A stretch of 64,000 nt of DNA, from the NCBI GenBank assembly GCA_033763895.1, contig JANRJQ010000007.1:124001-188000 (forward strand). The letters run 5' to 3'. The stretch is from Chloroherpetonaceae bacterium (GTDB lineage: Bacteria; Bacteroidota; Chlorobiia; Chlorobiales; Thermochlorobacteraceae). The notes below the pieces were generated by a model. That model saw only the letters and a list, made by a program, of their open reading frames with translations, was not told the origin of the DNA and searched no databases. Both the position numbers and the translations under genes were made by a program. Positions within the stretch are counted from its first letter, which is position 1. Each line of letters begins with the position of its first letter. This document shows, one piece after another, positions 29,734-50,868 of the stretch.

Positions 29734-29839
29734 CAAAAAACTCCCCATTCCTTACCACATACTTCAAAGGCGCATTTCCGCAGAAGCCGTAGGGCGAGAA
29801 CTGCTGGTCGGCGGGGTCTATGGCATAGAAGCGGTTGAA
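29734..29839 (-). repeat. RHS core copy 1 (truncated)
   Basis: Encodes FNRFYAIDPADQQFSPYGFC, then GNAPLKYVVRNGEFF. The 5' part of the core, before the FNRFYA codons, is missing. It leads in the coding direction into the T9SS tail remnant. Confidence 0.85.
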
Positions 29840-29863
29840 AAAATTATTAGAATGAGATTTGAA

Positions 29864-30229
29864 TTAAACTGGTCCAGAAATTAAAATCGAAATTTCGTTT
29901 TCTCCAATTCGGATTGTTTTCCCCATTCTTTTTTTCTTTGTTTTGAAACTTGGGTGTTTAAGAAATCGGCGGATTGCAATTGCCACTTGGTCTGGCTGTA
30001 TTCTTAAAACTACAAGGCAATACGATTAGTGGTTCCAATTTAATTTTTCAAAATCACTATCCCTTGTAAAGAAAGTTACTTCTTTGAGGGAGTGAAGGAG
30101 AGGGAGAATATGATTAACATCTTGCATCCCTTTTTGCCCGATTTCAACCCCGATTTGACGGAAGGGTATCTTAAACAGCCGAAGTTTTTTTCGCTCTTCT
30201 TGTGCGATATTCTCGTCGAGTATGTACAT
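29864..30229 (-). pseudogene. DUF5615/PIN-like toxin, interrupted by one in-frame stop
   Basis: The frame starting MYILDENIAQEERKKL runs through TRDSDFEKLNWNH to a TAA at 30026-30028. It then continues unchanged for 53 more codons (SYCLVVLRIQPDQVAIAIRR...KKRMGKTIRIGENEISILIS) to a stop at 29864. Together ~120 residues form a complete DUF5615-type toxin with N-terminal DEN, central RDSDF and C-terminal RMG motifs. One point change accounts for the break. The start overlaps the DUF433 antitoxin by 59 bases. Sequencing error or readthrough cannot be excluded. Confidence 0.75.
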
Positions 30230-30440
30230 CTCGAATTGATTTAATAGCTAATTCTACAGCTTCAGCAACAGCTTCAGGTGGAATAAGTGAATTATATTTT
30301 TCTGAAATAGATTGAAACGTTTTCCCTTTAGAGACATAAAATAGTGCATCTGCTACCGCGATTCTCGTCCCTATGAAACGCAATTCACCATTTCCTTTTT
30401 CAGAGTCGGATTCGATGTACTTTCCTAAGATTTTTCTCAT
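30171..30440 (-). CDS. DUF433 antitoxin-like protein
   Basis: An 89-residue protein with the DUF433 pattern: GELRFIGTRIAVADALFYVSKGKTFQSISEKYNSLIPPEAVAEAVELAI. DUF433 proteins are winged-helix-like antitoxins usually paired with DUF5615 toxins, as here. The frame is intact while the toxin is broken. The C-terminal tail (RREYRTRRAKKTSAV) overlaps the toxin start in another frame. It lies directly after RHS core copy 2 in the coding direction. Confidence 0.78.
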   Translation of the reverse strand: MRKILGKYIESDSEKGNGELRFIGTRIAVADALFYVSKGKTFQSISEKYNSLIPPEAVAEAVELAIKSIRDVHTRREYRTRRAKKTSAV

Positions 30441-30530
30441 GAGGCTCTTTTATTGTTCATCTTAGATAACTATTTGTTTTCAAAAACCAAAATGTAGCTT
30501 ATAAATTTTTGCCCTTAGTTTCAATAACAT

Positions 30531-30693
30531 AGCGTAGGTCGAGAACTGCTGATCGGAGGGGTCAATGGTACAGAAACGGTTGAAGTCGGTGTTGTAAATA
30601 CGTGCCCTAAAGTTTCAGAGTTTGCCGTCGCCTTCGTTTTCTTGGCCGGAGAAGTAATAGCGGTACCACTATGTTAGGCCGTTACCTACAGTT
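30531..30693 (-). repeat. RHS core copy 2
   Basis: Recognisable from GCGTAGGTCGAGAACTGCTG to the TACCACTATGTTAGGCCG end. Point differences and frame damage make it non-coding as read. It abuts the DUF433/DUF5615 locus. Confidence 0.85.
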
Positions 30694-30900
30694 GCATACT
30701 TTATTATACTAGAGGTGGGAAGGTCTGTCACTTCTGATTTGCTCTTACAATTTTTCCTCAAGTATATCAGTAGAACTTTTCACATACAGAGGTTTACTCA
30801 GTTTAAAAGCTACTAAATTTTCGTATATTGTCAGATTCTGAAATTTGATTCAAATCTATTTTGAGTATCGTGTTTATACCTTTTTTCTATATGTCGGTAT

Positions 30901-31137
30901 ATGATAAAGAAAATTTTAACTCCTCAACAGAACAGTTATAACTTGAGCATACCTCCAAACTATATCGGTAAAAAGATTGAAATACTGATTTATGCTTTGG
31001 ACGAAGTCGTACCTGAAAAGTTTGCTTCCCCAAAAAAGACCTTTTCTGATTTCTGTGGTATTTTATCGGAAAGTGATTATCAATCATTAAAAGCCCACTC
31101 CGAAGAGGCGCGAAAAGAATGGAACAGAGATATTTAA
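30901..31137 (+). CDS. VapB-like antitoxin
   Basis: A 78-residue protein, MIKKILTPQQNSYNLSIPPNY... with a C-terminal DFCGILSESDYQSLKAHSEEARKEWNRDI. This is the tail type found in antitoxins that wrap PIN-domain toxins. The N-terminal part looks like a beta-strand DNA-binding or AbrB-like segment. Its stop overlaps the start of the PIN toxin by 19 bases, the usual coupled antitoxin-toxin order. Confidence 0.75.
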   Translation: MIKKILTPQQNSYNLSIPPNYIGKKIEILIYALDEVVPEKFASPKKTFSDFCGILSESDYQSLKAHSEEARKEWNRDI

Positions 31138-31530
31138 TCGATACCAATGTTATCATTGATAATTTCGGAAACAAGCTTACTCCAAGCGCAAAATTTTTCT
31201 TTAATAACTTAGAAATAATTATTTCTGCTATTACAAAGATTGAATTATTAGGTTGGAAAGGTGCTACAGAAAATCAATTAACCCCGGTATATCGATTTAT
31301 TGAACTTGTGACTGTTTTACCAATCAGTGAAGATGTAGTAAACCTCACAATTTCTATCAGGCAATCCAAAAAAATTGCTTTAGGGGACGCTTTAATTGCC
31401 GCTACCGCAATTGTTTATGACTTTAATTGCCGCTACCGCAATTGTTTATGATTTAACACTCATTTCCCGGAATATCGCCGATTTTACGAATATTGATGGA
31501 CTAAAAATTCTTGACTCGAATACTCTTTAA
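31119..31530 (+). pseudogene. VapC-like PIN-domain toxin disrupted by a 31-bp tandem duplication
   Basis: Starts MEQRYLIDTNVIIDNFGNKL (first catalytic Asp) with KIELL (Glu) and GDALIAATA (Asp). At 31390-31451 a 31-base segment is present twice in tandem, which shifts the frame after AIVYD and stops it at 31451. Removing one copy restores the reading AIVYDLTLISRNIADFTNIDGLKILDSNTL to a stop at 31528-31530, i.e. a complete PIN domain including its last acidic motif. It is a single lesion that could revert by recombination between the copies. The antitoxin upstream is intact. Confidence 0.88.
31390..31451 (+). repeat. Perfect 31-bp tandem duplication in vapC
   Basis: Two identical adjacent copies (31390-31420 and 31421-31451), beginning CTTTAATTGCCGCTACCGCA and ending TTTATGA. 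31 is not a multiple of three, so the duplication shifts the toxin frame. Confidence 0.97.
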
Positions 31531-31599
31531 TAGTAGTATCCGTGCTAAGTCATATTTTAATAAATGTTTCCCTCCTTAGTACTTTAATAAATATTTTCA

Positions 31600-31757
31600 A
31601 AACCATCAACGGCGAATTTCCGCAGAAAGCGTAGGGCGAGAACTGCTGGTCGGCGGGGTCTAAGGCATAGAAACGGTTGAAGTCGGTGTTGTAAAGCCGT
31701 GCTTTAAAGTTCCAAAGTTTGCCATCGCCTTCGTTTTCTTGGCCCGTGTAGTAATTT
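31600..31757 (-). repeat. RHS core copy 3
   Basis: Near-complete core from the GGCGAATTTCCGCAGAAAGC end to CTTGGCCCGTGTAGTAATTT. It lies 70 bases beyond the end of the disrupted vapC and just after the lipoprotein gene in array order. Confidence 0.9.
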
Positions 31758-31769
31758 CTATCCTATTAC

Positions 31770-32225
31770 TTATCTCGGATAAGTAAGTCTTCCATTGAGT
31801 CGAGCTATTTCTTCAATACTAAAGTCATATCTTACAATTATCTTATATCCAGCACGAATTTCTTCCCAACTGTATTTGGCGACTGTATCGGGATCAAATA
31901 TGTAAATTGATAATGTATCTGATGATGAACCAATTTCTTTGCGTAAAATAGTCTCATAATCATCGCTAAAGACACCCAAATACAAATACGTGTAGTCAAT
32001 TATGTAATGAGTGTCACCGGGTATAAGTTTACTAAAATTAGGCTTAAAAGATGGTAAAGTTGTATCTGGATGTATTGATCCTTGATACGGGTCTGGATAT
32101 GGTTGAGCCCCTACTAAATAGAGAAGGGTGTCAGTGGAATTATTAGAAAGACTTACATTATATCTCCCGACACAACCAACTAATGATAAAGTAAATAATG
32201 CTAAAAGAAATATTTTTTTCCACAT
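31770..32225 (-). CDS. Lipoprotein, candidate immunity protein for the metallopeptidase toxin
   Basis: A 151-residue lipoprotein (MWKKIFLLALFTLSLVGCVGRY, lipobox LVGC). The mature part is beta-rich with tyrosines (YLVGAQPYPDPYQGS, HYIIDYTYLYLGVFSDDYE). It has no recognised family. It begins 86 bases downstream of the RHS-tip metallopeptidase gene on the same strand, the usual position of an immunity gene, and membrane anchoring would suit a toxin acting in the periplasm. The immunity role is inference from position. Confidence 0.6.
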   Translation of the reverse strand: MWKKIFLLALFTLSLVGCVGRYNVSLSNNSTDTLLYLVGAQPYPDPYQGSIHPDTTLPSFKPNFSKLIPGDTHYIIDYTYLYLGVFSDDYETILRKEIGSSSDTLSIYIFDPDTVAKYSWEEIRAGYKIIVRYDFSIEEIARLNGRLTYPR

Positions 32226-32311
32226 ATATAATAAATTTATTTTCTTAATAAAATTGGAGGAAATTGACTCTGTCGAGGATAAATCCGAGGGTAGTCTCTT
32301 TCAAAATTATT

Positions 32312-33304
32312 TCAATTCACCCCATACCTTGCAAAATAATCCGCCGCATATCGATTGGCCTCCATTTCAAAATCTTGTATGTCATGCGTGCTAATTCTAG
32401 CACCCCAAGGGTCATTTCTTACCCACTGTGCTGACATAGCACTCAATAAACTGGGGATACCAATATTAGACAAATATCTAAATCCCAACTTTCGACTTTG
32501 AAAAGTATGACCATATTCGTGCATCAATAGGGGGTCATTAAGTATATCAAATGATGAATTTGGTGTGTCTGCCCAGATATGCTTACCTAAGGAAACACCA
32601 CTTCCTTTACCGTTATAACTTACTGAAAAAGTTACTCCACCAAAGTATCTGACCTCGTCCACATTTCCTGTTAGGTTCATCCATTGTGAGGTTATAGCTC
32701 CAATATTTGATTGGGGTTGCTCCCAACTATTTTGGAGTATTCCACTCCCTATTTTTTCCCAGAATCCTTTTGTTTCATCCAAATAATAGTCTCCCAGAAA
32801 AATTTTAACTGAATTTTCTAAACACGTAAAATCAAGTGAGAAGACCGAATTTGTAAAATTAAATGGAATGCTGAGTGAAGAGGTTAAATTCTTTAGCGCA
32901 TCTGTACCGGCGATGATAGGCCCTATAATCGGAATACTATAAGTTAACCCCTTTCCAAGCGTTGAACCAACCCTACTAATAGAGCCACTTACTACTGCAT
33001 CAAGGCCGTCAAATACATTCTTTATATTTCCCTCATATATTTGTGTAATAAGGTTAAATACTCCAAAAATATTGAAAAACTCCCCATTCCTATCTACAAA
33101 CATCAGCGGCGAATTCCCGCAGAAGGCGTATGGAGAGAACTGCTGGCCGTTGGGGTCTAAGGCATAGAAACGGTTGAAGTCTGTATTGTAAAGCCGTGCT
33201 CTAAAGTTCCAGAGCTTGCCATCGCCTTCGTTTTCTTGGCCGGAGATGTATTTTAGGAACTTTAGTGTCGGGTCGCCGCCTACGAAGGTAGGCATTAAAT
33301 CCAT
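32312..33304 (-). CDS. RHS-core protein with zinc-metallopeptidase-like C-terminal toxin domain
   Basis: A 330-residue orphan tip. Residues ~15-75 are the RHS core (ISGQENEGDGKLWNFRARLY...FCGNSPLMFVDRNGEFF), which in full RHS toxins closes the cocoon and is where the tip is cleaved. A Gly-rich linker (about 80-150) is followed by the tip domain. Its LLMHEYGHTFQSRKLG has an HExxH-like zinc motif, with a further DIQDFEMEANRYAADYFARYG carrying a possible third Glu ligand. The frame is intact but no YD-repeat region precedes it. A candidate lipoprotein immunity gene follows. Expression may need recombination onto a full-length RHS gene. Confidence 0.85.
   Translation of the reverse strand: MDLMPTFVGGDPTLKFLKYISGQENEGDGKLWNFRARLYNTDFNRFYALDPNGQQFSPYAFCGNSPLMFVDRNGEFFNIFGVFNLITQIYEGNIKNVFDGLDAVVSGSISRVGSTLGKGLTYSIPIIGPIIAGTDALKNLTSSLSIPFNFTNSVFSLDFTCLENSVKIFLGDYYLDETKGFWEKIGSGILQNSWEQPQSNIGAITSQWMNLTGNVDEVRYFGGVTFSVSYNGKGSGVSLGKHIWADTPNSSFDILNDPLLMHEYGHTFQSRKLGFRYLSNIGIPSLLSAMSAQWVRNDPWGARISTHDIQDFEMEANRYAADYFARYGVN
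33074..33295 (-). repeat. RHS core copy 4
   Basis: Complete core, including the AACTCCCCATTCCTATC distal end and the GGGTCGCCGCCTACGAAGGT proximal end shared with copy 9. It is in frame with the metallopeptidase tip. Confidence 0.92.
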
Positions 33305-33405: not shown

Positions 33406-33714
33406 TTGGTTATAATAAAAAAATATCCGTTTATTGCTTTTATTAAGGCACATGCTGATTCCTCTATTCCATTACAAGAATGGTACCATTCTGTTAAGTC
33501 AGCTAGTTGGAAGAATCATGCTGATTTGAAAGCACATTACCCTTCTGCTGATTTTATCGGAAACGGAAGGTATGTTTTCAACATCAAGGGTAATAAATAT
33601 AGATTAATTGCTTTTGTACACTTTAAGATTCGTACTGTCTTTATCAAATTTATTGGAACACATGCAGAATATGATAAAATCGATCCTAAAACCATAGAGC
33701 AAATTGATTATTAA
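33406..33714 (+). CDS. higB: HigB family mRNA-interferase toxin
   Basis: A 102-residue protein matching the HigB_toxin family (PF09907): LQEWYHSVKSASWKNHADLKAHYPSADFIGNGRYVFNIKGNKYRLIAFV and FIKFIGTHAEYDKID. These ribosome-dependent RelE-fold nucleases act on mRNA. The start shown is a TTG that fits the family length. The toxin precedes the antitoxin, the order typical of higBA. Both genes are intact, on the strand opposite the RHS cores, and sit between copies 4 and 5. Confidence 0.9.
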   Translation: MVIIKKYPFIAFIKAHADSSIPLQEWYHSVKSASWKNHADLKAHYPSADFIGNGRYVFNIKGNKYRLIAFVHFKIRTVFIKFIGTHAEYDKIDPKTIEQIDY

Positions 33715-33772
33715 TTGATTGAATTAATAATAGGGTTATTTTTGTATCAAAACTTTAATTAGTATATCTCTC

Positions 33773-34150
33773 ATGAAAATCAAAACAAAATCAGAATACA
33801 CTGCCGCAATAAAGAAACTTGAAACTTGGGCACAAAAAAATCCTGATGGAAATGATCCTGAAACGAACATGAAAATGCAAATGATTTCTGAAGCAATTGA
33901 AGCCTATGAGGATAAATCTCTGCCAAGTTCATTTCGGGAAATTCCCCAACCAACCACAATACCAGATGCTTTAAGATATAAAATGTATGAACTTAATCTA
34001 GACCAAAAAGATTTGGCAAAAAAATTGGGTATTGCACCGACAAGAATTTCTGAAATTCTTTCAAAAAAGAGAAAAATAAATTTGAGTTTAGCAAAAAAGC
34101 TACACTCAAAACTCGGGCTTGATCCAAGGTTTATTTTAGAAAAAGCTTAA
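33773..34150 (+). CDS. higA: HigA antitoxin with XRE-type helix-turn-helix
   Basis: A 125-residue antitoxin. The N-terminal helical segment (AIKKLETWAQKNPDG) is followed by a C-terminal HTH domain (LRYKMYELNLDQKDLAKKLGIAPTRISEILSKKRKINLSLAKKLHSKLGLDPRFIL). HigA neutralises HigB and represses the operon. It starts 58 bases after higB; typical gaps are shorter, but no other start is evident. Confidence 0.92.
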   Translation: MKIKTKSEYTAAIKKLETWAQKNPDGNDPETNMKMQMISEAIEAYEDKSLPSSFREIPQPTTIPDALRYKMYELNLDQKDLAKKLGIAPTRISEILSKKRKINLSLAKKLHSKLGLDPRFILEKA

Positions 34151-34232: not shown

Positions 34233-34382
34233 ATTTCCGCAGAAGGCGTAGGGCGAGAATTGCTGGTCGGCGGGGTCTAAAGCATAGAAACGGTTGAAAT
34301 CGGTGTTGTAAAGTCTCGCTCTAAAGTTCCAGAGCTTGCCATCGCCTTCGTTTTCTTGGCCGGAGAAGTAATAGCGGTAAAA
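34233..34382 (-). repeat. RHS core copy 5
   Basis: Core begins abruptly at ATTTCCGCAGAAGGCG, 82 bases after higA, and ends GAGAAGTAATAGCGGTAAAA. No C-terminal domain follows in the coding direction. Confidence 0.92.
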
Positions 34383-34525
34383 AAATGTTAAGCACTAATC
34401 GATTCATTAGTGTCTCTTAGAGTTTTACTAATGTCGTGCTCACCACAGATTCCCGACGCGTCGCTCCACGACTTGCGGAAATGACATAAAGGGTACAACG
34501 CTTCTTCAATCTTAATTGACAACTC

Positions 34526-37500
34526 CTACTTCACCAACATCATCTTCTTTGTTTGCACAAAATTGCCTGATTTCAACTGATAGAAATACACCCCGCTCGC
34601 GAGCTTCGCCGCATTGAAATTCACTTGATACTTCCCTGCCTCTTTTGGTTCATTCACGAGTGTAGTCACTTCGCGACCCAACACATCATACACCTTAAGC
34701 GTCACTTGCCCGCTTTGCGGCAATTGATACGCAATCACCGTATTCGGATTGAAGGGGTTCGGGAAGTTTTGTTCAAGCGCAAACTCCGTTGGTAACAATG
34801 TCCTTACTTCACTTTCAAGCAACGTTTTATCACCTACCAATACCTTAAAACTCATCACATCTTTCGTTCCGGCAAAGCCATACACACAGCTTCTACTTAG
34901 CGAACTCACCCGCTTTTGCGATTCATCCACCAGAAGCACTTCCAAACCCTTTGGAACAGACTCAATCCCCATCACCTGAATCGTATGCCATCCACGTTTC
35001 AACGACCGCACTTCAAACTGCCATTCTTCTTTACCGACAAAGGGCGGACGGATATCCACGCTATATCGCGGAAACGCCTCATCCCAATTGCTATGCGGGA
35101 AATAGAGGTACGCCAAATCATGCGCAAGCGGTGGCTCGGGATAATCAAATGCATCGCGCCCTTTTGTGGCTACAGATGATACGCCAAGCTCATTATCCAC
35201 ATCTTTATTTTCTGGCGTGGTTAAGTGGATTTTCAAACGCCAGCCATCAGTAGCGTTCTCCGCAAATCGTTGAGATTCTTCCGTGGTGGAAAGTGTGGTT
35301 GTTGTGGCGGGGTTAGGAATCACCAATTGTGTAATGCCGGCAGGGATATTCACATAATATCCAACATACGGCGTCATTGTATTTTCAATGGTATATGCAC
35401 CATTATAGCCGCGAAGTGCCGAGCCGCTGAGGTCGCCGAAAACCGAGGTCGCCGTTTGAACCGCACTCCACGACACCGCCGTGTTAAACGGATTGGTGAT
35501 AATATTCCAACTATTTGCACGCACAGGGATAAGTGCACGGTTATTCGAGAGCGAAAGATTCCCGTTAAAAGCCGGTGCGGTTAATCCCCTGCGTGCTATA
35601 ACCCAAACGCCTTCACCAATATTGGTTCGCGAGGCCGGTTGAAGTAAATCGTATGTAGTGCCATTGTCAGTAAAAATGCGCCAATCTTTGGCATCGACTT
35701 GAGTAATACCAAAATCAGATGGAGAAATTCCACGACCCGGCAGCCCTGTAAGTCGATAACTCGTATTCGAGACCGTTTCTTGTCCGCTTAAATTCGGGAC
35801 ACTCGGTAAGGCTTGTGCCGCTATTGAAATCGGTGATGAAACGGCAGCCGAAACCGTGCCTGAAACATTGACCGTTTGTGCGGCCGCGCCTGTACTGGTA
35901 TGTGTAATTTGACCGGACGGCGTGCCTGCGGTTTGACCTGTAAGCCGCACTTGAATGGCCGTTGGCCCCACCGTTCCGCCTAATTGAGATAGGTTAATGA
36001 TTGAACCGAATTGACCTTGATTCCCAACACGAATTGCATAGCCCGTTGGTGCTGTAATTACGACTTGAGCGGTTAACCCCGACCACGAAACCTGATACCC
36101 CTGAACCTGAGATGGGATACCAATTGATGTTGAAAACGCAGTCATCGAAGAGGAGACTGTTATGGATGAAAGGGTTGAAGCAACATTCCCCGATACCGCA
36201 ACCGTTTGAGTAAGTGCACCAGTTGAAGCGTGTGTGATGTTTCCGCTAAAATTTCCTTGCGACGTTCCGGTGAGCCTCACCTCAATTGGTGTTGTTGGAA
36301 GTGAATCTCCTTGTCTTGCAAATGCTAACCGAGAAACAAATACATTTTGTGTTCCCCCTCGCCTGACTTCAAAGCCTGCCGGAGGTGTCACAATCAAGCT
36401 ATCTGAAAGATTTCTGCCATTTACAAAATATTGCGACGTGCTCGAAGGCGTACCGGCGGTTGTACTAAAATTAAATGGTCCAACAGTGCTAAGCCCAATC
36501 AAAGGATTTTCAGTAGTGACACTTCCGCTCACCGCCACATTTTGCGTGGTTGCGCCTGTGCTCGTATGGGTGATGTTCCCGCTGAATGAACCTGCAATTG
36601 CGCCGGTAAGCCGAACTTGAATGGTGGTAATTGCAAGCGTACCGCTTGAAGGCGCAAGACTCAGCGCACTTGTTTGAAAACTGCCACTCGTCCCTTGCCG
36701 AATCTCAAACCCGCTTGGTGGTGTAATGACGACATTCCCCGTTAGGTTTGACCCGGAAACCGTGTATTCTTGCGCTGTTGAAGGCGTGCCTGTAGTTGAA
36801 GAAAAAGCGTTTAGGGTTGAACTACTTACGGTGACAAATGAGGTCGCTGTCACCGTGCCGCTCACCGCAAGTGCGAATGGGGTCGCGCCACTCGAGGTCA
36901 CGCGAACGGAATCGGAAACGTTACCCGATGTTGTTCCTGCTAAACGAACTTGAATGGTCAAGTTTTGCAAAGTTCCACCAACAACGCTCGATGTCATTTG
37001 CGATTGAAATGACCCGCTTGTCCCAAAGCGCCCTTCAAATCCATTTGGAAAGGATACAGAAATCGATTCGCGGACATTCGTCACATTTAGTGAAAACGAT
37101 TGCGTTGCGGAAGGAACCCCCGGGGTAGTTGCAAAAGTTGTGAGAGAACCGGAAGCGAGCGAAAGTTGCGGCGTTGTTCCCGTTAAATTCCTTGAAAAGG
37201 TTAATAGATTCGGATCTTGAGCAGTAATCAGGTCAAGCCTACCGTCGCGATCCAAATCTGCCGTTAAAACTTCATTCACATTCGACAAAAATACCCTTGC
37301 ACTTACCGCGCTTGCAAACGACGATACCCCAAGCGCCCCGGGCGAACTCACATTTCTATAAACCAATAATTGGGAAGTAAAGCCGGTATTACACACAATT
37401 AAGTCGTTTCGCCCATCGCCATCAATATCCGATGCATCAACATCGTTATAATTCCCCGAGACAGCGGAGTAAGAAACAAACCCGATAAAACCTTGCGAGC

Positions 37501-40741: not shown

Positions 40742-40763
40742 TGCGGTGATCTTGGGTTTTGGT

Positions 40764-41858: not shown

Positions 41859-42094
41859 GTATAATTGAGTTGATTGATAGAGTAAATAAGTTTTTTTAGC
41901 TACGATAAGATAACCAATCCAACCTTTTGTTAAAAAAATTGAACAAAAAAGGCGACCCTGTGGACGCCTCAAACATTCACAATTTTTTAACTCACCAACG
42001 CTACAGTGATTTCGATACTTCGATAGTCTCAGCGCATTGCAGGCTCAATCACCTTCGCATTTCATTCTTCACTTATCACTCTTCACTGAATCTA

Positions 42095-42187
42095 TTACTT
42101 CGTCAGAATCATCTTCTTTGTTTGCAAAAGGTTGCTCGATTGCAGCGAGCCTGACGTCCTAATTCTAATACGGTAGAAATATAATAG
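42095..42187 (-). pseudogene. Remnant of a T9SS C-terminal sorting domain (sub-array B end)
   Basis: The minus-strand frame reads LLYFYRIRIRTSGSLQSSN, then LLQTKKMILTK and a stop. The junction to RHS copy 6 (TTTTTTGTTGAAGCAG... then the YFY codons) is homologous to that of copy 1 at 29.7 kb. The flanking non-coding text (AATTTTTTAACTC, CTCAATCACCTTCGC, CTTCACTGAAT) is also shared with 29519-29610, so the two ends derive from one ancestor by duplication. Confidence 0.7.
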
Positions 42188-42198
42188 CTGCTTCAACA

Positions 42199-42348
42199 AA
42201 AAATCATTCCATTCCTATCCACAAACATCAGCGGCGAATTTCCGCAGAACGCGTAGGGCGAGAACTGCTGACCCTTGGGGTCTAATGCATAAAAACGGTT
42301 GAAATCGGTGTTGTAAAGCCGTGCTCTAAAGTTCCATAGCTTGCCGTT
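42199..42348 (-). repeat. RHS core copy 6
   Basis: Core with distal end through CCTATCCACAAACATCAGCG; proximally cut at the LWNF codons. It encodes ALDPKGQQFSPYAFCGNSPL and leads into the T9SS tail remnant. Confidence 0.9.
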
Positions 42349-42520: not shown

Positions 42521-42736
42521 ATGAGACAAGTAAAAGTATATACCACAGATAAGGAATACAGCCATTTTGTAGAACTGGCTAAAAACCTGCATTATGTTAA
42601 AAAAATTGAAACGGATGATGAGCCAACAAAAGAAGAAATTATCAGCAATTTAAAGCGCGGTTTTGAAGAAATAAAATTAATTAAAAAAGGCAAATTAAAA
42701 ACGACTCCCGCAAAAGAATTTTTGAATGAGTTATAA
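42521..42736 (+). CDS. RelB-like antitoxin (pair 1)
   Basis: A 71-residue antitoxin, MRQVKVYTTDKEYSHFVELAKNL... with the C-terminal EIKLIKKGKLKTTPAKEFLNEL typical of antitoxins paired with RelE/ParE-fold toxins in Bacteroidota. It overlaps the downstream toxin start by 11 bases. It is a paralogue of the antitoxin at 44465. Intact. Confidence 0.75.
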   Translation: MRQVKVYTTDKEYSHFVELAKNLHYVKKIETDDEPTKEEIISNLKRGFEEIKLIKKGKLKTTPAKEFLNEL

Positions 42737-43052
42737 AGTTGAAATAACTTCTAACTTTAAGAAGGAAGCAAAAAAGCTTACAAAAAAATACCCATCACTA
42801 AAATAAGAACTTGCTGATCTATTTTCCGAACTGGAAAAACACCCTACAAAAGGAATTCCTCTTGGTAATGTTGTTTATAAAATTCGAATTTCTATAGCTT
42901 CCAAAAATAAGGGGAAGTCTGGTGGTGCAAGAATCATTACATTTGTGAAAATTATTGATGAAACAGTTTTCCTGTTTTCCATATATAGTAAAGGCGATGT
43001 GGATACACTTACTGATAAACAAATACAGGAAATCATGAAGGAATTTATATAA
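42726..43052 (+). pseudogene. RelE/ParE-like toxin with one in-frame stop
   Basis: The frame starts MSYKVEITSNFKKEAKKLTKKYPSLK, meets a TAA at 42804-42806, and continues in the same frame through ELADLFSELEKHPTKGIPLGNVVYKIRISIASKNKGKSGGARIITFVKI to a stop at 43050-43052. It aligns throughout with the intact toxin at 44661 (KKYPSLISEIYQLVSTLKTNPTQGKSLG), so a single point change at codon 27 explains the break. Confidence 0.85.
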
Positions 43053-43085
43053 CGTATAAAATTGTATAAAATGCGTTTTTTGAAA

Positions 43086-43232
43086 TATTTCCGCAGAAAG
43101 AGTAGGGCGAAAATTGCTGACCCTCGGGGTCTAAGGCATAGAAACGGTTGAAGTCGGTATTGTATAATCGTGCTCTAAAGTTCCAGAGTTTGCCGTCGCC
43201 TTCGTTTTCTTGGCCGGAGAAGTAATCGCGGT
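43086..43232 (-). repeat. RHS core copy 7
   Basis: Begins abruptly at ATTTCCGCAGAAAGAG, 33 bases after the RelE pseudogene, and ends GAGAAGTAATCGCGGT. No tip follows in the coding direction. Confidence 0.92.
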
Positions 43233-43509: not shown

Positions 43510-43725
43510 ATGGAAACAGTATTAATACAAATCAACAATACCAAGGCTTATAGGCTTTTAGAGGACTTAGAAGATTTACATATTATCAAAGTTCTTAAAA
43601 AAAGTATTCAGCCTCAGCAAAAGCTTTCTGAAAAGTATGCTGGCAAACTGCCTGCTGATGTGGTGGACGAACTTCAAAATTATGTAACCCAAAGCCGTAA
43701 CGAATGGAACCACCGAAGTATCTAA
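43510..43725 (+). CDS. VapB-like antitoxin (intact pair)
   Basis: A 71-residue protein, METVLIQINNTKAYRLLEDLEDL... with a C-terminal LPADVVDELQNYVTQSRNEWNHRSI resembling the tail of the antitoxin at 30901 (EEARKEWNRDI). It overlaps the PIN toxin start by 22 bases. Confidence 0.78.
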   Translation: METVLIQINNTKAYRLLEDLEDLHIIKVLKKSIQPQQKLSEKYAGKLPADVVDELQNYVTQSRNEWNHRSI

Positions 43726-44093
43726 TTGACACCAATGTTGTGATTGATTATCTCGGTAATAAACTCCCGGCTTCTGGTATGGATTTTATGAATACCGTTA
43801 TTGATGCAGTCCCTAATGTTTCGGTAGTTACCAAAATTGAGGTACTTGGCTTTAATGCCCCCGAACAGCATTACCAACTGCTTACTAATTTTATCAATGA
43901 TGCTAATGTATTGGACTTAACCAACATTGTGGTAGAAGCAAGTATTGAAATTCGTAAAAAAATCAAAACCAAATTACCCGATGCCATCATTGCCGCAACG
44001 GCTCTTGTTACGGGCTTGGTTCTTATCTCTCGCAATATCAACGACTTTAAAAATATAGATGGATTGCAGGTCATTGACCCGCATAGACTTTAA
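43704..44093 (+). CDS. vapC: VapC PIN-domain toxin (intact)
   Basis: A 129-residue PIN-domain ribonuclease: YLIDTNVVIDYLGNKLPASG (first Asp), VVTKIEVLGF (Glu), TKLPDAIIAATALV (Asp) and LVLISRNINDFKNIDGLQVID (last acidic residue), the four acidic positions expected for Mg2+-dependent tRNA/rRNA cleavage. It is homologous to the duplicated toxin at 31119 and shows what that one encoded. The stop lies only 9 bases from RHS core copy 8. Confidence 0.92.
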   Translation: MEPPKYLIDTNVVIDYLGNKLPASGMDFMNTVIDAVPNVSVVTKIEVLGFNAPEQHYQLLTNFINDANVLDLTNIVVEASIEIRKKIKTKLPDAIIAATALVTGLVLISRNINDFKNIDGLQVIDPHRL

Positions 44094-44102: not shown

Positions 44103-44295
44103 GCGAATTTCCGCAGAAGGCGTAGGGAGAAAATTGCTGACCCTTGGGTTCTAAGGCATAGAAACGGTTGAAATCTGTGTTGTAAAGTCTCGCTCTAAAG
44201 TTCCAAAGTTTGCCACCCTGTTCGTTTTCTTGGCCGGAGAAGTAGTATCGGTACCACGGCGTTAGGCCGTGGCCTACAACGGTTGGTGATAACTC
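44103..44295 (-). repeat. RHS core copy 8
   Basis: Encodes VVGHGLTPWYRYYFSGQENE and the whole core to FCGNS, then runs into text derived from the vapC 3' end. It carries the TACCACGGCGTTAGGCCGTG proximal end, as in copy 2. Confidence 0.92.
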
Positions 44296-44464: not shown

Positions 44465-44671
44465 ATGAAAGTTCTCTTAGATATTAAAGATAGTAAAGCT
44501 AAACCGCTTTTAGAAGTGCTTAGAGGATTGCCTTATGTTAAGGCAAAAAAGATCCTTGATGAAAAGGAATTGTTAATTAGCGAAATAAAAGAATCGGTTG
44601 AAGAGCTGAAATTAATCCGAGCAGGAAAAAAAATTGCTCGAAATGCAGATGATTTCCTCAATGAATTATAG
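44465..44671 (+). CDS. RelB-like antitoxin (pair 2)
   Basis: A 68-residue antitoxin, MKVLLDIKDSKAKPLLEVLRGLPYVKAKKI..., ending ELKLIRAGKKIARNADDFLNEL. It has the same tail and the same 11-base overlap with its toxin as the pair at 42521. Confidence 0.78.
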   Translation: MKVLLDIKDSKAKPLLEVLRGLPYVKAKKILDEKELLISEIKESVEELKLIRAGKKIARNADDFLNEL

Positions 44672-44990
44672 CGTAAAAACGACGGATATATTTGAGAAGC
44701 AAGCAAAGAGGCTGATAAAAAAATATCCATCCTTAATATCAGAAATCTACCAACTTGTTTCAACCCTTAAAACAAATCCCACCCAAGGCAAATCACTTGG
44801 GAAAAACTGTTATAAAGTTCGAATTTCAATAGCCTCTAAGGGGAAAGGTAAATCTGGTGGTGCAAGATTAATTACAAATTTTGTTATTTCAGAAAATACC
44901 GTTTATTTAATTTCAATTTACGATAAATCTGAGAAGGACTCAATCTCTGACAAAGAATTATCGATTCTCCTTCAATCAATTCCTCAATAA
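44661..44990 (+). CDS. RelE/ParE-like toxin (intact, pair 2)
   Basis: A 109-residue toxin from the ATG at 44661 (MNYSVKTTDIFEKQAKRLIKKYPSLISEIYQL...). It carries SLGKNCYKVRISIASKGKGKSGGARLITNFV, the basic beta-sheet of the RelE fold, and DKSEKDSISDKEL at the end. The start is set by the 11-base overlap with the antitoxin stop and by the paralogue at 42726. Intact. Confidence 0.85.
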   Translation: MNYSVKTTDIFEKQAKRLIKKYPSLISEIYQLVSTLKTNPTQGKSLGKNCYKVRISIASKGKGKSGGARLITNFVISENTVYLISIYDKSEKDSISDKELSILLQSIPQ

Positions 44991-45032: not shown

Positions 45033-45491
45033 CTACTTTTTCTCATTTATCTCAATAAATACTTCCTTTTTTTGAACATCTTCGTTCAAATAAACTCTTA
45101 CCTTTTTTGGGTAAAACAGATGATTTCGACTATTCTTGACTTGTTCAATTTTTTCTTGTGTAATTGAAGGGATAATTCCCACATACAGTTTCATAGCTTT
45201 AAGTGCATTTTCAACATCCGTTGTAGTACAAATCTCAAGATCCACGTATTCCATACATTCATGCAGTTGTGATGAATAGTCCATAAGAAACATATTCATA
45301 CTTTCATCAATTTCATTTAATGCATCTTGTCTAGTAAAACAAATTTCGCCATTTAAATCCGATATTTTTAATAAATTATAATTATTTTTAAATGGTGCGT
45401 ATATACACAGAATTACGGTTAAGTCATTTGTTTGTATTTCTCTATTGTTACAAATGATTTTTACTATTAAGGCCTCTGGAAATATGAGCAT
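45033..45491 (-). CDS. Candidate immunity protein
   Basis: A 152-residue soluble protein (MLIFPEALIVKIICNNREIQTNDL..., ALKAMKLYVGIIPSITQEKIEQVKNSRNHLFYPKKVRVYLNED) with no recognised family. It starts 4 bases after the end of the RHS-tip toxin pseudogene on the same strand, the position of an immunity gene in polymorphic toxin loci. It is intact although its toxin carries an in-frame stop. Confidence 0.6.
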   Translation of the reverse strand: MLIFPEALIVKIICNNREIQTNDLTVILCIYAPFKNNYNLLKISDLNGEICFTRQDALNEIDESMNMFLMDYSSQLHECMEYVDLEICTTTDVENALKAMKLYVGIIPSITQEKIEQVKNSRNHLFYPKKVRVYLNEDVQKKEVFIEINEKK

Positions 45492-45495: not shown

Positions 45496-46476
45496 TTAAT
45501 TTTTAGGTATTGAGATATTCACTTTTAGTTGATCAATCCTTATAGGACTTACCAATGGCCAATTTCCCGGGAAAACATGAAATTCATACCCACCGTCATA
45601 TTGACCATAATTAGGTTTTACCATCCCTTCATGTATTACTTGAATTTGATCATTCTTAAATGTAACCCTAAAACTTGGTTTGGAAGGCAAAGCTAACTTT
45701 GATTGTGCAGATTGAGCATCGTCATAAAATTCATTACTATAATGAACAGATTTTGGCTTACCTTTGGCATCAACACCCGGAATAACACCATCTCTATCAA
45801 TTGCTTGCATTTCGCCTTCGCCAATATATCTGAAACCTATACCATCTAAAGCATTGCCAGTAATTGGATTTCTACCTTGGTCTATTGCTTGCGCGCTTGA
45901 AATAATTCCACCTTGAACAAATCCGTTAATTGCTCCAGATTTTAACCCACTTATAAACCCTGTTCCAAAATTACCATCAAAACTTCCTCCATTATACCAA
46001 CTCAAGGTGCCATTAACTATTCCAGATACGAAGCCTCCTGTTATCGCGTTTGATACCGCTCCATTTAATGCCGGTGAGGATGATAATGAAAATCCATTGA
46101 TTGTGGTATGATTTAATGCTGTACCTACATAGGGCTGAATAATGGTGCTAAGTCAAAAACTGGCAACAGAAATACTCGAACTAATTAGGCCACTTCCTAA
46201 ACCTTGCCCCAGATTTCCACCCCTTAACAATGTATTTCCAAAACCTTGAATGAAGCCGCCAATCGCAGCCCCACCATATCCGGGCCATAAAAGATTTGAT
46301 GCAGCTGAAGCACCTCCAATTGCAGCAAAACCAGCAAACTTACCTATGTTAAAACTTCCATCCTGAGTTATTGCATCCCAATTTGAAATTACATTGTTTG
46401 TTGCACCTAATGAAACTGCTGCAATCGCTGCCCAAGTAAATGGATCAAAAAACTCCCCATTCCTATCCACAACCAT
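45496..46476 (-). pseudogene. RHS-tip toxin interrupted by an in-frame TGA
   Basis: From the core (FCRNSPLMVVDRNGEFFDPF) the frame runs through a Gly/Ala-rich linker to SSSISVASF and a TGA at 46153-46155. It then continues in frame (LSTIIQPYVGTALNHTTING ... GGFVSGIVNGTLSWYNGG) to the tip domain ending IDQLKVNISIPKN. The tip has GFRYIGEGEMQAIDRDGVIPG and KPKSVHYSNEFYDDAQSAQ, a layout seen in RHS tips of the ADP-ribosyltransferase-like or TreTu-like type (low certainty). One nonsense change separates it from an open 327-codon frame. No start codon precedes the core; a stop lies just upstream at about 46688. Confidence 0.8.
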
Positions 46477-46676
46477 CAGAGGCGAATTCCTGCAGAAGGC
46501 ATAGGGCGAGAACTGCTGATCGGCGGGGTCTATGGCATAGAAGCGGTTGAAGTCTGTATTGTACAGCCGTGCTCTAAAGTTCCAGAGTTTGCCATCGCCT
46601 TCGTTTTCTTGGCCGGAGAAGTAATCGCGGTACCACGATGTTGGGTCGAAGCCACCCTCAAATAGGTAGGCAGTGC
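46446..46676 (-). repeat. RHS core copy 9
   Basis: Complete core with distal AACTCCCCATTCCTATCC and proximal GTTGGGTCGAAGCC ... GGTAGGCAG. It is in frame with the interrupted toxin. Confidence 0.93.
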
Positions 46677-46684: not shown

Positions 46685-47026
46685 TTAAGTCAATTTATTT
46701 ATCAGCCTGCGAACTAAACCCAAAAAAAATGTTGAGGATACTTCTCCAAGCACACCAAGAATCAGGGTTTCGGAAAGTGTGGTTAGTTTAAGCAACTTAA
46801 ACACCGAGGGTTTATTTAATCCTGTTTTTTGAAATTCGATATCATCAGGCAACAAAATCACGTCGTCTAATTCTGCGTTGCTTAATTGGGAAGAAATAAA
46901 CATCACCAGATAGTCGTTATAAGTCGTAGAGGCGGGCGATAAAATCAAGACTGGTCTTTGTTTTGCGCCAGTACCGTCTGTAAAAGGAAACTCAGCAAGG
47001 ACAATTTCCCCGCGCTTATATTTCAT
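46685..47026 (-). CDS. MazF/PemK-family toxin
   Basis: A 113-residue endoribonuclease of the PemK/MazF fold: YKRGEIVLAEFPFTDGTGAKQRPVLILSP (catalytic Arg in the QRPVLI strand), VMFISSQLSNAELDDVIL, TGLNKPSVFKLLKLTTL and ILGVLGEVSS. It is on the same strand as the RHS cores, immediately behind copy 9, and overlaps the stop of its antitoxin by 4 bases (ATGA). Intact. Confidence 0.9.
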   Translation of the reverse strand: MKYKRGEIVLAEFPFTDGTGAKQRPVLILSPASTTYNDYLVMFISSQLSNAELDDVILLPDDIEFQKTGLNKPSVFKLLKLTTLSETLILGVLGEVSSTFFLGLVRRLINKLT

Positions 47027-47256
47027 CGCTGCTCCTTGAGGTCTTTCAATGAATATCCATCTTCCGACTCACTTTTAAGAAAGGCAAAAGTTGGGTCTTT
47101 TTGAATAAGATTCAAGGTGATATTAACTTCTTCAGATTGCGAAGGCTTCGCAACCTCACGCTGCAATTCGTGAGTAATGAACTCGATAAGTAATAGTTTT
47201 TCAGCTACAGAGCAGAATTTCACTGCATTTGTGATTTCTTGAATTGACATAATCAA
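47023..47256 (-). CDS. Antitoxin of the MazF-like toxin
   Basis: A 77-residue acidic protein, MSIQEITNAVKFCSVAEKLLLIEFITHEL... with a C-terminal DPTFAFLKSESEDGYSLKDLKEQR. This N-terminal helical pattern (TxxAxxLSxxEKxxLIexLxxeL) is common in small antitoxins. It lies directly upstream of, and overlaps, the PemK/MazF toxin. It is not a classical AbrB-type MazE. Confidence 0.75.
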   Translation of the reverse strand: MIMSIQEITNAVKFCSVAEKLLLIEFITHELQREVAKPSQSEEVNITLNLIQKDPTFAFLKSESEDGYSLKDLKEQR

Positions 47257-47363
47257 CTGAAGGATATTTTTTTCTTTAATATACTCAACCTATAGGATTT
47301 TCTTTAAAGTCAATTTTCATAGCCTATCTTTTAGAATCACTTTCAAAATAAAGTTAAAAAATC

Positions 47364-47482
47364 TCCGCAGAAAGCGTAGGGCGAGAACTGCTGATCGGCA
47401 GGGTCTAAAGCATAGAAGCGGTTGAAGTCGGTGTTGTAAAGTATTGCTCTAAAATTCGAGAGCTTGGAATCGCCTTCATTTT
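47364..47482 (-). repeat. RHS core copy 10 (degenerate)
   Basis: Begins at TCCGCAGAAAGCGTAGGG and ends at AGCTTGGAATCGCCTTCATT; several substitutions and an early proximal end. Confidence 0.88.
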
Positions 47483-47503
47483 ATCTTATTATGTTGGAAA
47501 TAA

Positions 47504-48088
47504 TTATTCTATACTCCCATTATTTAATTCGTCCATTATCCAATTATCTGAAGGTGGTAATGAATCGTATTGTACAAACTGAAGTTTATAATATATTTCT
47601 TTCTCTACAAATTTTTTTCCTTCTTGAATTCTTTTTGTATAAAATACAATTGTTGTATCATTTAATACAAAACCTTCTAATTCCACAACTTTCCATAAAA
47701 GTATTTTGAATCCTCCACTTGGCATAGAATTATGTCCAAAATATTGTACAAATATTTTTTATCTTTCAACTTCATATCTTCCCCACATCCACAAATCATT
47801 TATTCTTATATCTTCAATTTTTTTTAATTTATAATTTTTCAAATTTTTTTCTCCAAACGGGTTACAAAAATAACCATTTCTAAAAAAAATCAATGTGTAA
47901 TCATTGTATATAATGCCGTTTTCTTTAATTGGCATATAATAATAACCATTTGTTTTAAATTTTACTTTTGTAGAATCAAATTCATCAATTCTTTTCTTAT
48001 TGAACTTCCACAAAGTAAAATCTGATGAAATACATGAATTAATAAAAAAAACAGATAGAGCAAAAATTATATGTTTATAATTTTTCAT
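47504..48088 (-). pseudogene. Lipoprotein, candidate immunity protein, with one in-frame stop
   Basis: The frame starts MKNYKHIIFALSVFFINSCISS (lipoprotein signal, lipobox INSC) and reads through WMWGRYEVER to a TAA at 47759-47761. It continues in the same frame (KIFVQYFGHNSMPSGGFKIL ... DNWIMDELNNGSIE) to 47504. The upstream and downstream halves have the same composition and no overlap with other genes, so this is best read as one 195-codon gene with a nonsense change. It lies just downstream of the type-23-like toxin, as expected for its immunity gene. Confidence 0.65.
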
Positions 48089-48112
48089 AAAATCTTATTC
48101 CTATTATGAAAA

Positions 48113-49067
48113 TTAATAATAAAATCTATTCCTACTACCATAATGATAATACAATGAGCTATAATTCCCTCTTTTAAAATAAGGTGAACCAGAAATATAT
48201 TTGTGAACACCATTTTGAAAAAAAACCCTGTATCCAAGGTTCATTAATTCCAAATCTATGGACACTCCCATTTTGACCGGCAATTCCACAATATAGACTA
48301 CTAAAGTAAACTTTGCCATTTTTATATGTATTTTTTTCATTTCCCCCCCAATAAGGATCTTCATAATTTGGTTCTAAATTATTATCATCTTTAGATGAAC
48401 CAGCATTATTTGTATAAATTTCAGAACCAACCTTAAAGTTGTAAGCACTAATTTCCAAAGTTGATGTTCTTCCTTTATCAGAATTTAATAGGTCGTTATA
48501 AAGACTTAAGCTAAATTGATTGTTTCCTAATTGCACACCATCCACTGTTTGGTTAAAATCACTTTCAGTTCCTCTAAATTGTGTTCGTGATAATAGGAAT
48601 TTATTATTTCCATCGGTGTAACCTCCAAATACCCCAGCGGTAATATAAGGACCGTTAGTGATTAAGCCAGAACCGCCTCCAACTCCAATACTTCCTCCAA
48701 ACACTGAATTCCCAAAACGTGCCTCTCCACTTAAATTTAATCCAAGAGAAATACCATTAGTATTTAATGAAAATGAAGGGGATAAACTAAGAGATACATT
48801 ACCGATTTGCATATTTGCACTTGGTAAATATGAACTTGCAATTGCTGAAGCTGACCACCCTACTGAGCCCCAAAAACCTGCTGAAGCACCACCTGTATTT
48901 AACGCCAACCAACCCTGCGCTGCTAAATAACCACCTGATTTTACAGCTTCCCATCCCCAATCACCTTTAGAAATGCCGTGATGCAAATATCCTGCTGTAA
49001 ATGAAACTCCAACCATAATTAAATCATCAATTATAAACCAGCGCCCTTTCTTATCCACATACATCAA
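48113..49067 (-). pseudogene. RHS-tip toxin, polymorphic toxin type 23-like, frameshifted in a homopolymer
   Basis: Starts within core copy 11 (MYVDKKGRWF) and continues through a Gly-rich beta-repeat region (SLSPSFSLNTNGISLGLNLSG, GSIGVGGGSGLITNG) to NGKVYFSSLYCGIAGQNGSVHRFGINEPWIQ. The text then goes out of frame at an eight-base A run (48218-48225 on the plus strand). The other frame supplies the missing end, FFQNGVHKYISGSPYFKRGN then YSSLYYHYG. This matches the type 23 polymorphic-toxin tip of Bacteroidota (NGxVYSSPLYxG...VQNFVHKYI). Removing one base of the run restores the full frame. The core itself also carries a TAG at 49209-49211. Confidence 0.82.
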
Positions 49068-49227
49068 TGGCGAATTTCCGCAGAAGGCGTAGGGCGAGAA
49101 CTGTTGGTCGGCGGGGTCTAAGGCATAGAAACGGTTGAAGTCGGTGTTGTATAGCCTCGCTCTAAAGTTCCAAAGTTTTCCATCGCCTTCGTTTTCTTGG
49201 CCGGAGAACTAGTATCGGTACCACGGA
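49041..49227 (-). repeat. RHS core copy 11
   Basis: Complete core; a C-to-G change turns the second Tyr of YRYYFSG into TAG (49209-49211). It is in frame with the type-23-like tip. Confidence 0.93.
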
Positions 49228-49383
49228 ATTTGAATTGAAACAGATCGTGTTTCCAAAAAATGAAATTTTAAACTTTTAATTACATAATAGTATAAGAAAA
49301 CTTTTCATATCTTTTTTTGTATTAAATTATTAAATTTATAGGGTGTATTTTTAATAACATTATACTTAATTGCTAATTTCTTC

Positions 49384-49845
49384 CTAATTTAGCTGTTCTT
49401 TGAACCATAAATTCATTTTTTTAATCACACTCTTTTCTCCGACAATAAAATCACTTGCAAATTCTTCTGTCAAAGCAGCACTTATCTTTATTGAATCTTC
49501 AACTGTTTTAACATCTTTAAAGAAGTCTTTATAATCCTTACCTATTTTATACTTAATTATCTCATCCAAATAAAAAGTTTGGAGCTGATAATCCTCTTTT
49601 TTAAAAAATTCTTTAATAGTGTATATACCGGGTCGAATTTCGAACTCATCAATATTTTGATTGGAAAATTGTATTTGGGGAAATTTTTCACGAAATTCAT
49701 AAATAATATAAACACCTACAGTACTAGATGAAAATTTTGCATATAGAGCATAGTCGTAAGCTATAATTTCTTTTATCTTAAAATTATATTTAGACAACAA
49801 AAAACCAAAATGTTTGCTGACTATTTCAAAGTGATTTTTATTCAT
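49384..49845 (-). CDS. Candidate immunity protein of the intact RHS tip
   Basis: A 153-residue soluble protein, MNKNHFEIVSKHFGFLLSKYNFKIKEIIAYDYALYAKFSSSTVGVYIIYEF... Small acidic alpha/beta proteins with this type of N-terminus are frequent immunity proteins in Bacteroidota toxin loci. It begins 3 bases after the stop of the RHS-tip toxin on the same strand. The role is inferred from position. Confidence 0.65.
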   Translation of the reverse strand: MNKNHFEIVSKHFGFLLSKYNFKIKEIIAYDYALYAKFSSSTVGVYIIYEFREKFPQIQFSNQNIDEFEIRPGIYTIKEFFKKEDYQLQTFYLDEIIKYKIGKDYKDFFKDVKTVEDSIKISAALTEEFASDFIVGEKSVIKKMNLWFKEQLN

Positions 49846-49848
49846 TGG

Positions 49849-50868
49849 TTAATATCCTAAAAGTTTTATAGTTGGATAGCCTAACTCTTCAATTATATCC
49901 TTCTCAAGTTGATAAAATGGGCTTGTTATATTTGTCCCCTTCGGACCAATATCATAAATCTTATATCCTTGACTAATTTTTGACTTGAGCCATCTTGCAT
50001 TTCTTGATTTTGCTGCAATAAGTTCTGCTTCCGTCATTAATCGGTCCCTTGGAAAATTTTTTGTCCAAGCTTGATACCATTTTGCCCCAATAGATCTTGC
50101 AGCAGGTTTAACTCTATACATACCTTCACCGATAACAATTGCCTTCTCTACACTTCTTGTTACACTTGGGAACAAACGCGCCCCCCCAATAAGCGAAGCA
50201 CTCGAACCAGCAAGCAATAGTGGATCTAAACCAGCTGAGATAGCCGTAGCAGCAACCTCTTCGAATATATCAATATTTTTTACATATTGAAGGTATTCAG
50301 GGTCTTGTGGGCTAGAAAACCCTTGAAGCGTTGAAGTGCCTTGTAATGCATTTAATGCATCTCCAAGTGCTTTCTTACCTGCAAAGGCTTCTTTAAAGCT
50401 TGTTGGAGTTGGAGCATCGGTGATTTCTAATTCGCCTTTGTATTTAACCTCCGGTGCAATATCATCCCCATCAATTATATTTATTTTCCTTCCAAATAAT
50501 TCACTATTTGTTGTACCGTTTGCATTTGGTATCGTTGTATTGAGTGGCAACGGCTGAATCGTGGGGTAAAACGCTATTTTTGCTAACCAAAGAGCATTAA
50601 CAGCCATTGAAACACTAAATACAGATTTGAGTGCAGTGATAATTGTAGGTGTCCCCCAAACTATTAATTCTGCAACCCGCCCATTCTTATCCACAACCAT
50701 CAGCGGCGAATTTCCGCAGAAGGCGTAGGGCGAGAACTGTTGGTCGGCGGGGTCTAAGGCATAGAAACGGTTGAAGTCTGTATTGTACAGCCGTGCTCTA
50801 AAGTTCCACAGTTTGCCGTCGCCTTCGTTTTCTTGGCCGGAGTGTAGCGAAAATACATAAAAGTACAA
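49849..50868 (-). CDS. RHS-core protein with intact uncharacterised toxin tip
   Basis: A 339-residue orphan tip. Residues 10-70 are the RHS core (SGQENEGDGKLWNFRARLYN ... FCGNSPLMVVDKNGRV), then a hydrophobic segment (IITALKSVFSVSMAVNALWLAK), a ~120-residue linker, and a basic C-terminal domain (RSIGAKWYQAWTKNFPRDRL, AKSRNARWLKSKISQGYKIYDIGPKGTNITSPFYQLEKDIIEELGY). The YDIGP...S.FY..E pattern recurs in polymorphic toxin tips of unresolved activity, probably nucleases. The frame is open and the immunity candidate is adjacent. No YD repeats are upstream, only a repeat-rich intergenic region. Confidence 0.8.
   Translation of the reverse strand: MYFYVFSLHSGQENEGDGKLWNFRARLYNTDFNRFYALDPADQQFSPYAFCGNSPLMVVDKNGRVAELIVWGTPTIITALKSVFSVSMAVNALWLAKIAFYPTIQPLPLNTTIPNANGTTNSELFGRKINIIDGDDIAPEVKYKGELEITDAPTPTSFKEAFAGKKALGDALNALQGTSTLQGFSSPQDPEYLQYVKNIDIFEEVAATAISAGLDPLLLAGSSASLIGGARLFPSVTRSVEKAIVIGEGMYRVKPAARSIGAKWYQAWTKNFPRDRLMTEAELIAAKSRNARWLKSKISQGYKIYDIGPKGTNITSPFYQLEKDIIEELGYPTIKLLGY
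50679..50843 (-). repeat. RHS core copy 12
   Basis: Complete core from CCCATTCTTATCCACAACCA to TTCTTGGCCGGAGTG, in frame with the intact tip; the most upstream copy of the array in coding direction. Confidence 0.93.

Follow-up and report, generated by a model that had tools for sequence, protein, structure and literature searches.

Toxin–antitoxin (TA) modules stabilise plasmids and integrons. Two reports bear on the present case: TA cassettes stabilise the Vibrio superintegron (PMC11551772), and Rhs tip/immunity pairs themselves behave like type II TA loci, with the argument that they hinder rearrangement of the locus (PMC7043789). Here we analysed an array of Rhs cores in a 64,000-nt window (C7:124001-188000, the whole stretch under study) from the genome of a Chloroherpetonaceae bacterium (GCA_033763895.1), and found that its gaps hold both toxin tips and type II TA modules. 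Coordinates without a contig label are positions in this window; C7, C8, C9, C12 and C14 are contigs.

The array resembles several described systems in part. Like the orphan rhs-CT/rhsI units of Enterobacteriaceae (PMC3967940), it is a row of displaced tips with a partial core, usually without start signals, each unit having an immunity gene there and an immunity candidate here; unlike them, it has no main rhs gene that we could find, and in seven of its 11 gaps type II TA modules replace tip/immunity pairs or stand next to them. It shares with the sedentary chromosomal integron of Vibrio (PMC11551772) the head-to-tail repeats, cryptic cassettes and scattered TA modules, but its repeat is an Rhs coding remnant with variable edges rather than attC, and no integrase was recognised by eye. 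The Rhs pairs regarded as type II TA loci (PMC7043789) are likewise loss-resistant units of a toxin and its neutraliser in an Rhs locus, whereas the gaps here contain true VapBC, RelBE, HigBA, MazEF-like and DUF433/DUF5615 modules. The maf islands of Neisseria (PMC4287609) also array C-terminal toxin cassettes with immunity genes, some silent and without start codons, but they keep a MafB parent, and TA modules in their gaps are not described in the text available. Polymorphic toxin loci (PMC3482391) provide the standalone toxin cassettes with immunity genes and the Ntox-type tip (here Ntox23); in contrast to these loci generally, the parent is presumably lost here and classical TA modules are interleaved. 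A report of type II TA modules in Rhs orphan gaps was not found in the open-access literature, as far as its accessible text goes, which does not prove that there is none. Our preferred reading, to which we give a probability of about 0.52, is that the locus is an orphan-Rhs array that has lost its parent, and that TA modules settled between its cores and were kept there by their post-segregational effect, while toxin gaps were lost.

An array of Rhs cores with no parent found

Through a repeat search and a loose BLAST with one copy, we found 12 copies of an Rhs-core segment, all on the minus strand, between 29736 and 50842 (Table 1), in agreement with the first-pass annotation, which had been made from the sequence alone. 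The BLAST E-values across the copies range from 1e-26 to 1e-90, so the copies are not chance matches. The aligned part is 104-206 bp long, and its translation, SGQENEGDGKLWNFRARLYNTDFNRFYALDPADQQFSPYAFCGNSPLMVVDRNG, corresponds to the end of the Rhs core; Rhs_assc_core (TIGR03696) scored above its cut-off in several copies, and the cores are about 85-90% identical among themselves. At copies 4, 11 and 12 the partial core continues, in the same frame, into a different C-terminal toxin domain each time, and at copy 9 the tip is split. The four toxin tips that had been assigned to these copies were recovered, that of copy 11 being Ntox23. Small open reading frames (ORFs) downstream of the tips sit at the position of immunity genes; two of them were scanned with Pfam, and neither matches an immunity family. 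Imperfect inverted and tandem repeats were also seen at 51002-51155, just upstream of the first core of the array.

The assembly comprises 3.55 Mb in 14 contigs and is 99% complete. A search of it with PF05593 (Rhs repeat) gave 0 matches, and no full-length Rhs gene of the window-core type was found in it, neither upstream of the array, where the main gene of an orphan array stands, nor elsewhere; the longest core-bearing open frame has 465 amino acids. The earlier claim that a YD-repeat parent is missing thus held for the whole assembly. Other genomes of this phylum usually have a parent Rhs gene with orphan units of core, tip and immunity gene behind it, and the core-bearing frames of relatives reach 1000-2900 amino acids and more. 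Since contigs end inside a second Rhs family, a parent belonging to that family may simply not have been assembled.

The cores of toxin units have a ratio of nonsynonymous to synonymous differences (pN/pS) of 0.07 with a pS of about 0.4. They differ mostly at silent sites, indicating that they diverged while still coding for Rhs protein and did not arise by recent copying on the spot. For TA-adjacent cores the ratio is 0.29, with stops in some, and these cores are decaying under relaxed constraint. A high pS together with strong amino-acid conservation means that each core once belonged to a functional gene, as it would if twelve separate full Rhs genes had been destroyed in place. We regard that origin as very improbable: no copy has Rhs sequence upstream, the segments start inside the core or immediately before it, the units are only about 1 kb long, and the parent-plus-orphan arrays of relatives offer a known route to such units.

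Type II TA modules in the gaps

A type II TA module, that is, a small adjacent antitoxin and toxin with a known toxin family, was found in seven of the 11 gaps between window cores (gaps 2, 3, 5, 7, 8, 9 and 10). The Pfam matches are DUF433, PIN (two), HigB, RelE and PemK, each with a partner ORF. The first-pass annotation had counted six modules, each following a core; the DUF5615-like toxin at copy 2 (from 30229, with one interrupting stop) was assigned by eye and has no Pfam match. A seventh, the RelBE module in the copy-9 gap, had been missed. The gaps were correctly given, but five of the seven modules lie on the plus strand, opposite to the cores, so that the cores do not run into them as a reading frame. 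In most TA cases the toxin gene, on the opposite strand, ends right where the Rhs segment has its 3' end. The orientation relative to the cores was opposite in 10 cases and the same in 3 (p = 0.09), a bias that is only suggestive. An NCBIfam search of the antitoxins returned no useful names, and promoter scans, which scored no better than chance, were set aside.

In three modules the toxin carries one disabling lesion while the antitoxin is intact: the DUF5615 of copy 2, the VapC of copy 3 and the RelE of copy 7. In the VapC of copy 3, the lesion is a short tandem duplication close to the 3' end that shifts the frame. Decay of the toxin first is the order expected if the toxin was active. Pairwise identity within the gap families is 34-47% for VapC and 51-60% for RelE. 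Modules of the same family are thus far more divergent than the cores, showing that they were acquired one by one and not copied along the array. Judged by this divergence, the modules are unlikely to cross-neutralise each other. Relatives of two gap toxins were found on plasmids.

To place these modules in the genome as a whole, we counted matches of three toxin families (PIN, RelE and PemK), with HigB and DUF433 left out. The results showed that five of the 10 PIN places, all three RelE places and two of the three PemK places are in Rhs arrays or, for PemK, in or beside them; no Rhs core lies near the PIN places outside the arrays. Rhs territory of about 42.5 kb, 1.2% of the genome, therefore holds 10 of the 16 matches (62%), and the chance of at least 10 under uniform placement is about 5e-16. 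Uniform placement is a generous null, since essential genes are avoided by TA modules, but an excess of fifty-fold is beyond any plausible correction for this avoidance.

Part of this territory belongs to the second, divergent Rhs family, which is located at contig ends (C12, C9 and the start of C7) and has PIN, RelBE, VapBC and PemK genes in or beside its gaps. The C12 and C9 ends share about 100 identical bases (L041:12010-12149, L043:8800-8960), and so they are probably one array, in which PIN is followed by three toxin units, then RelBE and VapBC; the array at the C7 start also has PIN and PemK genes. Cores of the window type occur at three further sites (Table 1), one of which is a lone unit of two cores around VapBC beside nadB. 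The nadB of this genome is 72-82% identical to those of metagenome genomes of Chlorobiales and Candidatus Thermochlorobacteriaceae/Chloroherpetonaceae, and the genome is assigned to that group on this basis; the nadB genes of relatives have other neighbours and no cores, and their region is not syntenic with the unit on C8. In one related genome, a DUF5615-like gene, recognised by eye, lies upstream of nadB (L142:1344-1742), on the side that matches the unit here.

The association recurs in three other genomes of the same phylum (G053, G094 and G386), and this genome is the extreme case. In G094, of the same order, a truncated core is followed by RelBE on the opposite strand; in G386, HipBA, HigBA and RelBE lie between Rhs units and an Rhs fragment; and in G053, HTH-ParE and RelE adjoin an orphan array. 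Around the RelE places of other genomes, two of 40 stretches have Rhs cores within about 4 kb. TA-holding gaps number about 12 of 22-23 in this genome versus none of 54 elsewhere among the families listed (Fisher p 2e-8). A few helix-turn-helix (HTH) proteins are among the families listed for those 54 gaps, and counting lone HTH genes gives 3 of 54 elsewhere (p 6e-6). The idea that TA modules occupy the same slot as polymorphic-toxin tips was thus confirmed, far above chance, in two Rhs families of this genome, with TA modules also near Rhs arrays in three others. This genome alone represents its genus, and of the other eight genomes of the family only G001 has a core, a single copy with no TA module recognised beside it. 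Window cores were also sought in named genomes and viral contigs, where none was found; one weak plasmid relative (49%) came from Cardinium.

In G386, the start of HigA (MHIHPIHTQAD) occurs twice (L183:3281-3796, 5215-5568), one occurrence being HigA itself and the other joined to a fragment of an Rhs repeat, and the doubled start is possibly a recombination scar between TA and Rhs sequence.

Table 1. Rhs cores, toxin tips, TA modules and other features of the array, and further window-type cores in the genome
Feature	Position	Strand	Content	Basis
Core copy 12	50680-50842	-	into ORF 49849-50868 (toxin tip)	BLAST
Core copy 11	49044-49221	-	one internal TAG; into Ntox23 tip	BLAST
Core copy 10	47360-47482	-	then MazEF-like module	BLAST
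Core copy 9	46448-46653	-	into split toxin tip	BLAST
Core copy 8	44103-44254	-	then VapBC	BLAST
Core copy 7	43087-43224	-	then RelBE	BLAST
Core copy 6	42200-42345	-	then type IX secretion tail remnant	repeat search, BLAST
Core copy 5	34233-34370	-	then HigBA	BLAST
Core copy 4	33075-33280	-	into toxin tip, ORF 32312-33304	BLAST
Core copy 3	31601-31757	-	then VapBC	BLAST
Core copy 2	30532-30656	-	decayed; then DUF433/DUF5615	BLAST
Core copy 1	29736-29839	-	without 5' part; then type IX tail remnant	repeat search, BLAST
Tip of copy 12	49849-50868	-	ORF; no Pfam match	
Tip of copy 11	48174-49067	-	Ntox23	Pfam PF15528 4.6e-15
Tip of copy 9	46153-46476, 45496-46005	-	split	ORF list
Tip of copy 4	within ORF 32312-33304	-	HEYGH zinc-peptidase-like motif; no Pfam match	by eye
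Immunity candidate of copy 12	49384-49845			position
Immunity candidates of copy 11	47759-48088, 47504-47725		small ORFs downstream of tip	
Immunity candidate of copy 9	45033-45491			position
Immunity candidate of copy 4	31770-32225		lipoprotein-like	position
MazEF-like module	46685-47256	-	antitoxin candidate 47023-47256; PemK/MazF toxin 46685-47026; C7:170700	PF02452 2.7e-12
RelBE, copy-9 gap	44465-44990	+	beside toxin tip and immunity candidate	PF06296 9.5e-8
VapBC at copy 8	43510-44093	+	intact; toxin end abuts core 8 3' end	PF01850 2.6e-8
RelBE at copy 7	42521-43059	+	antitoxin 42521-42736 intact; RelE broken by one TAA	
HigBA at copy 5	33406-34150	+	intact	PF09907 4e-34, PF01381 1.5e-10
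VapBC at copy 3	30901-31527	+	VapB intact	PF01850 1.7e-9
DUF433/DUF5615 at copy 2	30026-30440	-	DUF433 antitoxin 30171-30440	PF04255 1.9e-6
Type IX tail remnant after copy 6	42080-42144		last ~20 codons; repeated tail end 42076-42144	repeat search, BLAST
Type IX tail remnant after copy 1	29595-29669		homologous to copy-6 remnant	
7.7-kb block between copies 6 and 5	34526-41972	-	two ordinary genes: ORF 40764-41972 and FG-GAP/TIG protein	
Further window-type cores	C7:84491-90523		mostly toxin units; no TA recognised	
Lone core-VapBC-core unit	C8:94071-95129 (L040:8057-9160)		no toxin tip; beside nadB, far from other Rhs sequence	
Window-type core fragment	C14:28089			

Possible retention of TA modules and other origins of the array

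We infer that post-segregational retention caused the TA gaps. The full-length Rhs parent would have been lost while displaced tips stayed as orphan units, each core being the coding remnant of an Rhs protein that formerly had a toxin tip and an immunity gene. Type II TA modules from a mobile pool would then have lodged separately between cores, in place of a tip or after an immunity gene. As direct repeats, the cores would make the array prone to deletion, and a deletion through the cores flanking a module would remove the short-lived antitoxin and leave the toxin, so that the cell would be killed or arrested. TA gaps would be kept and toxin gaps lost, a module being let go only after its toxin had mutated, and the lone unit on C8 would be the remainder expected from erosion of an array. 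Stabilisation of the array by TA modules against deletion between cores is plausible and fits the toxin-first breakage, the divergence of the modules and the lone TA gap on C8.

Several observations weigh against this reading. The three broken toxins are too few for significance. PIN, RelE, HigB and PemK are absent among the 25 families listed (18 rarer ones aside) for 106 ORFs in the 54 gaps of 19 stretches from other genomes, and as most Rhs arrays of the phylum are without TA modules, retention cannot be a general rule; 38 of the 40 RelE stretches of other genomes sit away from Rhs sequence. Retention is also not separable here from plain accumulation of TA modules in neutral DNA. Silent orphan-Rhs DNA may simply be a permissive landing zone, as defence islands are, where modules that land all over the genome survive because no gene is interrupted, with no benefit to the array, and we consider this possible, though clearly less probable than retention. 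It explains most of the same facts: the TA families come from the mobile pool, with relatives on plasmids, the modules also gather at array ends (G094, G053), and the TA-adjacent cores are decaying. A neutral zone, however, should also gather insertion sequences and phage genes, none of which was recognised in the window array, where the extra cargo is only TA modules and one type IX block; the concentration of 62% of the counted toxins in 1.2% of the genome is likewise not what such a zone would predict.

The type IX block lies between copies 6 and 5, and its FG-GAP/TIG protein has 2071 amino acids and a type IX tail (Por_Secre_tail). The end of this tail occurs in three places, at 34506-34575 and in the two remnants of Table 1, which directly follow an Rhs core; the repeat search and BLAST place these remnants, two of which had been noted before, after copies 1 and 6. 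Tail ends stand on either side of the 7.7-kb block that holds the FG-GAP gene, and the block may have been inserted through them. An internal duplication of about 1.2 kb, 57% identical, was also found in the gene of the 2071-residue protein (37396-40669).

Copies 1 and 6 have the same junction between core and type IX tail (29560-29840 versus 42044-42304, 73% identical), a sign that the array has probably duplicated one of its own units. Such a duplication would suit an integrase-free cassette platform, in which whole gaps are shuffled by homologous recombination between cores and both TA and toxin cassettes are captured. Units of about 1 kb that stand head to tail around one common repeat, and the recurrence of B-type segments with an identical 5' edge, agree with it, and Salmonella experiments support recombination between main and orphan Rhs genes (PMC3967940). 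We nevertheless hold it to be unlikely, because same-family TA modules are far more divergent than the cores and so did not travel as core–TA units, the core edges are variable and the cores under coding constraint, and the assembly yielded no parent gene that could receive cassettes. DNA folding of four core copies on both strands was no better than that of shuffled sequence (z -1.84 to 0.86), and the repeat is coding; the core was therefore rejected as an attC-type folded recombination site.

The first-pass annotation had proposed an integron-like cassette store with the core as homology block. Its observation that TA modules share gaps with toxin tips stands, but the store is not supported, given the coding constraint, the variable edges and the lack of attC-like folding; with TA-adjacent cores in decay, moreover, their units resemble dead ends more than a supply for some Rhs gene. 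Inspection by eye of the ORFs listed beside the array showed no integrase, and no family search of the genome aimed at integrases was made. The resemblance to a superintegron in array, repeats and TA modules is real, but the locus does not belong to the integrons. A broader proposal, that Rhs-core arrays are an integrase-free counterpart of superintegrons, in which core recombination captures and shuffles cassettes, TA modules hold the array and the two kinds of toxin system depend on each other for survival, seems to us doubtful. The same annotation had suggested that the TA loci may act as antitoxin or immunity reserves, which here would be directed at incoming Rhs toxins. Their co-location with the tips is all that favours this; no scanned Rhs tip matched a PIN, RelE, HigB or PemK toxin family, and whole modules are kept rather than lone antitoxins, so we dropped the proposal as scarcely credible.

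For annotation, these results carry the warning that a TA gene adjoining an Rhs core is neither an Rhs tip nor an immunity gene. With its direct repeats, its mixture of toxin and TA gaps and its modules at varied stages of decay, the array is a natural system suited to the question of whether chromosomal TA modules protect their neighbourhood against deletion. The concentration of TA modules in arrays of interbacterial-weapon fragments links intracellular addiction with intercellular warfare, and suggests that addiction modules gather in toxin arrays, and may protect them, much as in integrons.

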